Positions 3,696-31,809 of a stretch of DNA of 47,450 bases are shown piece by piece (position 1 is the first letter of the stretch; each line of letters begins with the position of its first letter). The position numbers were made by a program, and so were the translations under genes. Origin of the DNA: an uncultured Bacilli bacterium (GTDB lineage Bacteria > Bacillota_I > Bacilli_A > RFN20 > CAG-449); NCBI GenBank assembly GCA_947629415.1, contig CANRDP010000009.1, forward strand, positions 1-47,450. The letters run 5' to 3'. Below the pieces are notes generated by a model, which was given only the letters and a program-made list of their open reading frames with translations, was not told where the DNA came from and ran no database searches.

Positions 3696-3977
3696 ATGCG
3701 TTATGTTAAACCCTATTTTCGTGAAGTAGAAGATGACTCGGAGAGATTTGGCGAATTTCTGTTGCCATTTTTAGGTGGAGCGGTTTTAGGCGGATTTTTT
3801 GCTCCCGCAAAGCAAGTACCGGTTTATGTTCCTAGCTATCCTTATTATTCTAATTCTATCCAAGTAAGACCAACTTATCCTACTCCGTATCCATATGCAC
3901 AACCCTATAGTCCGATGTATTCTTATCCACAAAACGGACCATATGTTTTTCCAACCCAATCTTATTATCAAAAATGA
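3696..3977 (+). CDS. Pro/Tyr-rich small protein of unknown function
   Basis: A 93-residue protein I do not recognise. An acidic start (EVEDDSERFGEF) is followed by a short hydrophobic stretch (LLPFLGGAVLGGFFAP, about residues 22-37). The second half is very rich in Pro, Tyr and Ser with PYxYxxPY-like repeats. Such tails occur in some coat or exosporium proteins, but that is only a compositional resemblance. The AGGAGG ribosome site is ideal in spacing but is buried in the terminator hairpin after maf, so expression may be conditional. It converges on the EIIB-like gene with one base between the stop codons. Confidence 0.7.
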   Translation: MRYVKPYFREVEDDSERFGEFLLPFLGGAVLGGFFAPAKQVPVYVPSYPYYSNSIQVRPTYPTPYPYAQPYSPMYSYPQNGPYVFPTQSYYQK

Positions 3978-3993
3978 TTTATTTTTTTTGATA
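3966..3993. terminator. Weak bidirectional AT-rich hairpin between convergent genes
   Basis: TATCAAAAA (3966-3974) pairs with TTTTTGATA (3985-3993). It overlaps the ends of both convergent genes. The stem is AT-rich and therefore weak. Confidence 0.35.
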
Positions 3994-4350
3994 GTTTTGA
4001 ATAAAATCGGCGATTTCCTGAGAAGCGTCTCTTCCGATGACTAATGTGGTTTTTTTACTCATACGAACAATAGAAGAAACACCTAAACTTTTTAATGCTT
4101 CTTCATTTAGCAGGGAAGAATCTTTTAAAACAATATTCAGACGAGATTCTTTTGCTTCAATCGATAGTATATTTTCTTCTCCTCCAAGAGCAAGAAGAAC
4201 ATTCTGAGATCGTTCGATTTTTTCATTTTGATTCTTTTTCTTTTTATTTTTGAAAAAGAAAAAAAGTAAAAAACCGAAAAGGAATGCAATAGCAACAGCA
4301 CCTATAATCCAAGTGGTGATATCTACAACAAAAAATATTTTTCTTTCCAT
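3979..4350 (-). CDS. Membrane-anchored PTS EIIB-like domain lacking the phosphocysteine
   Basis: A 123-residue protein. A single membrane helix at about residues 12-33 is followed by a Lys/Asn-rich linker and a domain (about 51-120) that lines up with the glucose-type PTS EIIB fold: LGGEENI, then EAKESRLNI, LNEEALKSLG and TLVIG. In EIIB the second motif reads DACxTRLR and its Cys receives the phosphate from EIIA. Here that position is Lys67, so the domain cannot carry out normal phosphotransfer. The Arg-Leu after it is kept. I chose ATG 4348-4350, 7 nt after the nadK stop; an in-frame TTG at 4369-4371 lies inside nadK and has no better ribosome site. It is co-transcribed with nadK. Role unknown; a sugar-sensing or partner-binding remnant is possible. 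Confidence 0.75.
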   Translation of the reverse strand: MERKIFFVVDITTWIIGAVAIAFLFGFLLFFFFKNKKKKNQNEKIERSQNVLLALGGEENILSIEAKESRLNIVLKDSSLLNEEALKSLGVSSIVRMSKKTTLVIGRDASQEIADFIQNYQKK

Positions 4351-4357
4351 ACTTTTC

Positions 4358-5140
4358 TTAATCTGCAACAAATGCCTTTCTTAAACGATAAAAATAATTG
4401 ACATCTTTATAATGCAAGGATCGCATTGATCGATGAGATAGATTTACCGTAATTTCATCTTCAATGGAAGAACTGTCAATCGTGACAAATTCATGATCAT
4501 ATCCGATTAAACACCGCTTAAAGTTTCCTTGTAAACGGATTTCATAACCCTCCCCCAAAACTAAAAAGGAATTTAAAGAGCGATATGCATTGTGATTGAT
4601 GGAAGCAACCTCACCCATGGTAATTGTTTCAATTCTCGGATCAATTAATGGACCACCTAAAGATCGATTATAAGCCGATGCACCGGTAGTTGAAGAGAAA
4701 TTTAAACCATTGCCGCGGAAATTTTCTAACAATTGATTTTGAATATATACATTACAAATCATAGTATTGTATGGGTTTTCCACTCGAACTTCATTGATTC
4801 CGTAGTAATGATTGTTTTTGTATTTTATATCCAGTAAATGATGTTTTACAATTACGCGTCTTTTATAAAGAAGTGCTTCAATCAAATCATCAATTTCATT
4901 TCGAGTAAATTCGCAAAAAAATCCGAGTTTTCCAGTATGAATACCGATGAAATCAACATTTTCCAAGCGATCCAAATATTTATGGACGGCTCTTAAATAG
5001 GTTCCATCTCCACCTACAGAAATTACCGTATCCGGGCAAATTTCATCCAAAACATTACCATTTTTTTTAAGAGCTTTATCGATTTCATCGCGAATAGCTC
5101 TGGAATTAACATCATCTCGAGTACAAATAAAATATTTCAT
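4358..5140 (-). CDS. nadK: NAD kinase
   Basis: Phosphorylates NAD to NADP, the only route to NADP in most bacteria; cytosolic. The GGDGT nucleotide motif is at residues 43-47. The second family signature is at about 151-166 (TTGASAYNRSLGGPLI, where most enzymes have TPTGSTAYxxSxGGPI). The length of 260 aa is usual. An AAAAGGAG ribosome site lies 8 nt before the ATG, and an extended -10 promoter is just upstream. It shares an operon with the EIIB-like gene, 7 nt apart. Confidence 0.93.
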   Translation of the reverse strand: MKYFICTRDDVNSRAIRDEIDKALKKNGNVLDEICPDTVISVGGDGTYLRAVHKYLDRLENVDFIGIHTGKLGFFCEFTRNEIDDLIEALLYKRRVIVKHHLLDIKYKNNHYYGINEVRVENPYNTMICNVYIQNQLLENFRGNGLNFSSTTGASAYNRSLGGPLIDPRIETITMGEVASINHNAYRSLNSFLVLGEGYEIRLQGNFKRCLIGYDHEFVTIDSSSIEDEITVNLSHRSMRSLHYKDVNYFYRLRKAFVAD

Positions 5141-20682: not shown

Positions 20683-20713
20683 AAAAAAAAGATGAAGTTT
20701 TTTCTTCATCTTT
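20683..20713 (-). terminator. Terminator of the HPr-like gene
   Basis: On the complementary strand AAAGATGAAG (20713-20704) pairs perfectly with CTTCATCTTT (20697-20688) across a 6-nt loop and is followed by eight T. The 5' arm overlaps the stop codon. Confidence 0.92.
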
Positions 20714-20978
20714 AAGCGGTTAATTTTAATTCTTGTAAAAGATTTGTAAATTTTTTATAGGCGCTTTCTTCGTCTTTACCGTTAATTTCAATGGTGAAAT
20801 TTTGACCATGAGGTACGATAATGGCAACAACATTCATAATTGATTTTAAATCCGCTTTTTCATCCGATACCGTAAAATAAATATTGGACTGAAACTTATT
20901 TGCCAAATTAACCAATTCAACAGCCAATCTTGATGTCAGACCATCATGATTTGTAACGTAACCGTGAACAATTTTCAT
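20712..20978 (-). CDS. HPr-like (Crh-like) protein lacking the phospho-histidine
   Basis: 88 residues aligning without gaps to Bacillus HPr. The active-site segment GIHARPAT becomes GLTSRLAV, so His15 is Thr15; Arg17 is kept and Pro18 is Leu. The regulatory site is intact: LKSIMNVV with Ser46 at the same number. His15 takes phosphate from enzyme I, so this protein cannot relay phosphate to sugars. Ser46 is the target of HPr kinase, whose gene is at 30874. Bacillus Crh has the same logic (Gln15, Ser46) and acts as a CcpA co-regulator. The GGAGG site is ideal and a strong terminator follows, so it is expressed alone. Confidence 0.88.
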   Translation of the reverse strand: MKIVHGYVTNHDGLTSRLAVELVNLANKFQSNIYFTVSDEKADLKSIMNVVAIIVPHGQNFTIEINGKDEESAYKKFTNLLQELKLTA

Positions 20979-30873: not shown

Positions 30874-31809
30874 ATGCCACAGAAAAAAATCACATTGCAA
30901 GATTATGCCAATCACTTTGGTCTCGTAAGAATTCATGGAGATATGGAAGCTATGTCGCGAGAGATAACCGAAATATCCGTGAATCGTCCCGGCTTGGAAT
31001 TAGCGGGATTTTTTGAATATCCTCGTTCTCATCGATTGGTTTTTTTCGGAAATAAAGAAATGACCTATATTCAGACAATGAGTGAAGAAGCAATGCGCAA
31101 GGCCTTTGACTTTTTAACCTCGGATACTTGCCCGGGAATTATCATATGTCAAGGACGAAATTGCCCTCGGATTTTATTGGAAATTGCCGCGAAAAAAAAT
31201 TTTCCGATTTTGACCACAAAGCGGGCCACGAATATGTTGAATCTTGAAACGGTAATGTATTTACAGGAAGTATTGGCTCCGATGACTGCGATTCATGCGA
31301 CCTTGATGGAAATATTTTCCATGGGAGTATTGATCCTTGGAGAATCCGGGATTGGTAAATCTGAAACAGCTTTGGAATTGGTAAAAAAAGGTCATCGCCT
31401 GGTAAGTGATGATCGGGTGAATATATCTTATGTTCAGGGGAAACTTTATGGGGAAGCTCCCGAACTTTTACTTGGTATGATGGAAGTAAGAGGAATCGGA
31501 ATTATCGATATTTCACGAATGTTTGGTATTAATTCTTTGATACAAAAAATCGATATCAGCTATGCCATTCAATTGGAAAAACCGGATTTGACAAAACCGA
31601 TGGAGCGAATCGGAAGTGCGGTGCAATATATGGATTTATTGGAACAAAAAATACCTTTATTGAAAATACCCGTTTTTGCCGGGCGAAGTATGGCGGAAAT
31701 TATCGAAACGGCCGTTACCTATTTAAAATTAAAACAATATGGATATGATTCCGGTTATGAATTTGAAAATCGGATGAAAGAATTACTCCAAAGAAAGAAA
31801 GGAAATTAA
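30874..31809 (+). CDS. hprK: HPr kinase/phosphorylase
   Basis: 311 residues. Phosphorylates and dephosphorylates Ser46 of HPr (and Crh) in response to glycolytic metabolites, driving carbon catabolite control. The N-terminal domain leads to a Walker A loop GESGIGKS (about 156-163), His141 (AIHATLME), VSDD (about 177-180) and the family signature EVRGIGIIDI (about 205-214). GGAAGGGG lies about 7 nt before the ATG. It begins the conserved hprK-lgt-ppaX order. In this window its likely substrate is the Ser46-bearing, His15-less HPr-like protein at 20712. Confidence 0.96.
   Translation: MPQKKITLQDYANHFGLVRIHGDMEAMSREITEISVNRPGLELAGFFEYPRSHRLVFFGNKEMTYIQTMSEEAMRKAFDFLTSDTCPGIIICQGRNCPRILLEIAAKKNFPILTTKRATNMLNLETVMYLQEVLAPMTAIHATLMEIFSMGVLILGESGIGKSETALELVKKGHRLVSDDRVNISYVQGKLYGEAPELLLGMMEVRGIGIIDISRMFGINSLIQKIDISYAIQLEKPDLTKPMERIGSAVQYMDLLEQKIPLLKIPVFAGRSMAEIIETAVTYLKLKQYGYDSGYEFENRMKELLQRKKGN

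Follow-up and report, generated by a model that had tools for sequence, protein, structure and literature searches.

The window, a 47,450-nucleotide stretch of DNA from an uncultured Bacilli bacterium, encodes a 123-amino-acid protein made of one N-terminal helix and a glucose-type EIIB domain of the phosphotransferase system (PTS) in which lysine occupies the position of the phosphorylatable cysteine. Short orphan EIIB proteins without this cysteine are spread through the bacterial class, and one of them, judging from sequence comparison, is MG_129 of Mycoplasma genitalium. We put at about even the chance that these proteins are pseudo-EIIB docking platforms that bind a soluble protein at the membrane, probably derived from the stump of an EIICB permease, with HPr as the likeliest original partner. 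The relevant features of the window are the following.

3696..3977, plus strand: Pro/Tyr-rich protein of 93 amino acids, convergent with the EIIB gene; no Pfam match
3979..4350, minus strand: membrane-tethered Cys-less EIIB protein (MG_129 family), 123 amino acids from ATG (reading frame, profile, alignment, structure)
3991..4212, minus strand: EIIB (IIBGlc-type) domain, residues about 47-120 (Pfam, NCBIfam and phmmer; Foldseek to 1o2f_B, 3bp3_A and 3bp8_C)
4150..4152, minus strand: Lys67 codon, phosphocysteine position (phmmer alignment, family alignment)
4249..4317, minus strand: hydrophobic core of the N-terminal transmembrane helix, residues about 12-34 (sequence, AF2)
4358..5140, minus strand: nadK, NAD kinase (PF01513/PF20143; NCBIfam NF003424, 220.9 bits, over cut-off; GGDGT and NRSLGG motifs)
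20712..20978, minus strand: HPr, His15 changed to Thr and Ser46 kept (GLTSR ... DLKSIM), unlinked to the EIIB gene
31270..31773, plus strand: HprK, C-terminal domain of HPr kinase/phosphorylase (PF07475, E=3e-58)

An EIIB domain lacking the phosphocysteine

The reading frame matches PF00367 with E=9e-6 and 25.4 bits, slightly below the 27-bit cut-off of that model, and with 27.4 bits in the genome search. The best match among the NCBIfam IICB models is IIBC-nag (E=2e-13), and phmmer pairs the protein with the PDB entry of IIBGlc, 1iba (E=3e-5); neither Pfam nor NCBIfam yielded a model of its own for the family. The AF2 model (mean pLDDT 93.9) places one continuous helix, residues 2-54, before the domain, and a Lys-rich stretch directly follows the hydrophobic core of this helix. 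The top PDB folds returned by Foldseek are E. coli IIBGlc, alone (3bp3_A), with IIAGlc (1o2f_B) or with Mlc (3bp8_C), at TM 0.87-0.88. The protein is thus predicted to adopt the IIBGlc fold, and it has the architecture of the MG_129 family, a single N-terminal helix plus an EIIB domain, usually in 105-145 residues.

In the phmmer alignment, SIEAKESRLNI of the window protein lies under NLDACITRLRV of IIBGlc, so that Lys67 falls under the phosphocysteine. In E. coli PtsG numbering, Cys421 corresponds to Lys67, Thr423 to Ser69 and Arg426 to Asn72, Arg424 being kept as Arg70. The initial annotation had proposed a glucose-type EIIB fold with Lys67 at the active-site position, anchored by its own helix rather than fused to EIIC; model and alignments agree with it, and no EIIC is found in the genome (see below).

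The family was surveyed in one bacterial class. Orthologs are present, one per genome, in 43 of the 58 near relatives, and the orphan profile matches 353 of 395 genomes of the class, although in some families part of these matches are real permeases. Typically, a genome has one short orphan EIIB. An alignment of the short reading frames extracted from 103 genomes showed the cysteine site to be variable (K 30, E 18, N 11, T 9, R 8, Q 8, S 6, others, and Cys once). Lysine at this site, considered as a specially conserved residue, was therefore rejected: cysteine is missing from 102 of the 103 orphans, and only this absence is conserved. The one that has it, L110, is likely a separate protein, since a tree from which the cysteine column was left out (69 columns, poorly resolved) puts it with the EIIBs of true permeases. 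It is a short membrane-tethered EIIB (3995-4525, minus strand) from a genome, G084, with about ten EIIB domains. The cysteine is retained in 18 of 20 permease EIIB domains used for comparison. Initially suggested as a check on the domain, this survey of relatives returned proteins without the cysteine and outside any permease. The tree would be compatible with a single origin of the cysteine loss. Two full-length EIICB-like reading frames of 511-512 residues, L250 (G146) and L254 (G255), also lack the cysteine in their EIIB part.

PTS components in the genome and its relatives

The window genome (G000) comprises 1.19 Mb in 49 contigs and is 90.6% complete, so that the gene absences given here are those of an incomplete assembly. 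Within it, the window reading frame is the only PF00367 match and the profile search returned no PTS_EIIC (PF02378), a domain equally without a match in 55 of 58 genomes. EI (PF05524) is found neither in this genome nor in 18 further genomes of its order that were tested, and the HPr of the window carries Thr in place of His15. With EIIC, EI and any other EIIB missing from the genome, PTS phosphotransfer would have neither source nor acceptor; the loss of the cysteine and the missing donors together rule out the normal reaction of an EIIB in this genome.

Across the window's order (window and L256-L273) HPr has lost His15 (GLT, GLS, GLN or GLG in nearly all) and kept the Ser46 motif. HprK is present and EI absent in the genomes tested, making a Crh-like, regulation-only protein the only HPr of these bacteria. 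Crh of Bacillus, an HPr with His15 replaced, offers a parallel to the window EIIB as a PTS protein kept after losing its phosphocarrier residue, although it has the soluble HPr fold and not that of EIIB; the HPr of the window is itself of the Crh kind. Ser46 of Crh is still phosphorylated by HprK. Outside the window's order, in L102 (G145), position 15 of the HPr that adjoins an orphan EIIB is Gln, and EI is again lacking. Another locus, L140 (G124), appears to have EIIB, HPr and EI in a row (EI placed by the position of its match), that is, an orphan EIIB in a general PTS operon.

Could EIIB still be a phosphoprotein, modified at another residue such as Ser69 by a non-PTS kinase? Ser stands at the old Thr423 position in 76 of 103 orphans and the next residue is Arg in 87, which counts in its favour. 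We nonetheless accord this idea little probability, since a search of 19 genomes from the window's order detected no EI and the Ser, not being invariant, may be structural. Among genomes tested for all three of HPr, HprK and EI, those of families f3, f4 and f8 lack them all and retain the orphan EIIB, so that the function can depend neither on PTS phosphotransfer nor on HPr alone.

Gene neighbourhoods of the orphan EIIB

The EIIB gene starts 7 bp after the end of nadK, on the same strand. As the gene on its other side is convergent, EIIB could share an operon only with nadK in the window, as the initial annotation had noted. The convergent gene, for the Pro/Tyr-rich protein, is kept at the same place within the window's family. 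nadK lies directly upstream of EIIB in families f1, f4, f5, f6, f15 and f29, usually no more than a few bases away, and the adjacency is old since it is common to the window and to M. genitalium, where the two genes overlap by 1 bp.

Such tight pairing in six families could mean that EIIB regulates or localises NAD kinase, tying NADP supply to the membrane. An obligatory coupling is ruled out by independent losses on either side at the locus. In the window's order, eight genomes of two families (f5 g8 and part of f4 g25) lack EIIB and have nadK directly against maf, and four more genomes without EIIB (f4 g23) have a longer nadK-maf gap of about 140 bp; nadK left beside maf indicates that EIIB was lost while nadK stayed. 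Conversely, in parts of f4 and f1 EIIB is present and nadK absent at the locus. The two genes are thus separable. In most other families the neighbour of EIIB is HPr, tkt, polC or a cell-wall gene, and operon sharing among housekeeping genes needs no functional link. A control of NAD kinase by EIIB therefore seems rather improbable to us: of what had been proposed, the nadK-EIIB pair is real and recurrent, whereas the functional link to NADP synthesis finds no support.

Another arrangement has ptsH, encoding HPr, directly downstream of EIIB (20 loci in seven families, f14, f16, f18, f19, f21, f27 and f28), with gaps of -11 to 125 bp and often an overlap of 1-4 bp. The upstream neighbours of this pair differ among the seven families, giving several different surroundings. 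Further neighbours are tkt (f10, f23) and polC (f22), and in f3 EIIB follows rplQ. Co-dependence of EIIB and HPr was considered and rejected, since genomes lacking HPr keep EIIB and HPr occurs in some that lack EIIB.

MG_129 and a possible docking function

In M. genitalium the locus (L166) reads trpS, spx, nadK, EIIB. The EIIB gene encodes 117 residues, with Thr at the cysteine site when the motif is aligned by eye; from its position behind nadK and its size we take it to be MG_129, and the genome record to be that of M. genitalium G37. The window protein and MG_129 match with an hhalign probability of 96.2 (E 2e-9), and the orphan HMM detects the M. genitalium reading frame with E 7e-13; with nadK directly upstream in both, the two are orthologs. 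Like the window protein, MG_129 and its M. pneumoniae counterpart MPN_268 have a single N-terminal helix, an EIIB domain without the cysteine and nadK directly upstream. M. genitalium belongs to another family of the class and, unlike the window, has retained spx and trpS beside the pair. It is described as lacking any single EIIA or EIIC (PMC13047044), and the window genome, likewise without EIIC, differs in that EI is missing too and HPr lacks His15.

The orphan EIIB of M. genitalium is already published: a 2026 paper names MG_129 an "orphan PTS EIIB" and predicts that it binds the SRP receptor FtsY, citing one crosslink (PMC13047044). Cysteine loss, class-wide spread and shifting neighbours appear undescribed; the literature searched, which was partial, held no description of the first two, of the HPr operons or of the nadK pair. 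If the prediction applied generally, the EIIB domain would help hold FtsY at the membrane for co-translational targeting. FtsY is present in all 45 genomes tested, including those without HPr, and one FtsY-MPN_268 crosslink was obtained in M. pneumoniae; in the model, however, this crosslink spans 33.4 A, beyond the authors' own limit of 30 A (PMC13047044), and the published support comes from one lineage. Neither ftsY nor ffh was recognised beside EIIB among the neighbours identified. In genomes without EIIB, FtsY has the same short amphipathic N-terminus and no new membrane anchor. A change of this N-terminus upon EIIB loss was looked for and gave no consistent pattern, which speaks neither for the FtsY idea nor more than slightly against it. 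On balance, we consider a role in FtsY targeting unlikely.

Decay is another reading to be weighed. EIIB changes fast in sequence, has been lost repeatedly and has no EIIC left to serve, all of which would fit a remnant without function, left behind by a lost permease. The reading frame is intact, though, the GG..NI and S-R motifs are retained at 20-30% identity across the class, operon positions are tight, and even a genome of 580 kb has retained the gene. The motifs, together with the 353 matching genomes, argue against a decaying relic, to which we assign scarcely any probability. Conservation of the fold, of both motifs, of the membrane tether and of tight operons points rather to selection on a binding function.

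We therefore favour the docking platform. Loss of the cysteine would lock the glucose-type EIIB domain in a non-phosphorylated state, and the single helix would hold it at the inner face of the membrane, where it may dock a soluble protein, by analogy with unphosphorylated IIBGlc of E. coli binding the repressor Mlc. Sequestration of Mlc by IICBGlc is established. IIBGlc, the C-terminal domain of PtsG, resembles the window EIIB in fold (TM 0.87) and in being held at the membrane, and its binding of Mlc (noted in PMC11393339) is a precedent for docking; PtsG has Cys421 and its own EIIC, and the window protein has neither. EIIB-like domains are also reused for protein contacts and regulation in the PRD regulators AtxA, MtlR and Mga, but there they are parts of transcription factors in which a cysteine matters, no membrane helix is described, and that of MtlR is EIIB(Gat)-like (PMC12680359). 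The initial annotation had envisaged a non-catalytic sensor or docking domain. Its non-catalytic part holds, with the cysteine absent and no permease; the role itself we infer, docking or sensing being the best reading because the structure is that of EIIB and the relatives lack the cysteine and stand outside permeases.

In several real EIICB permeases the match to the orphan profile continues through the final helix of EIIC. This suggests that the platform is perhaps a C-terminal stump of such a permease, consisting of the last EIIC helix and EIIB. Candidate partners are HPr-type proteins, FtsY and NAD kinase. The operons lead us to put HPr-type proteins first as the original partner; FtsY comes second, on the published prediction and its over-long crosslink, and NAD kinase third. 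The families f3, f4 and f8 imply that HPr is not the only partner, and lineages without HPr would use another protein. The deletion of the gene in some lineages shows it to be dispensable and counts against docking. It is possible, at somewhat under even chances, that the pseudo-EIIB serves class-wide as a receptor at the membrane, dedicated to a partner new to it (FtsY, HPr-Ser-P or NadK), and so has a PTS-free role in minimal-genome bacteria.

A transport-enzyme domain has thus been kept as a short membrane protein, without its chemistry and without its transporter, across a class whose members include cultivable bacteria with some of the smallest genomes. If the protein serves for docking, simple genetics would give access to what MG_129, a conserved gene of a model minimal cell, does, and the case would show how parts of the PTS survive as regulators after PTS sugar transport has been lost.
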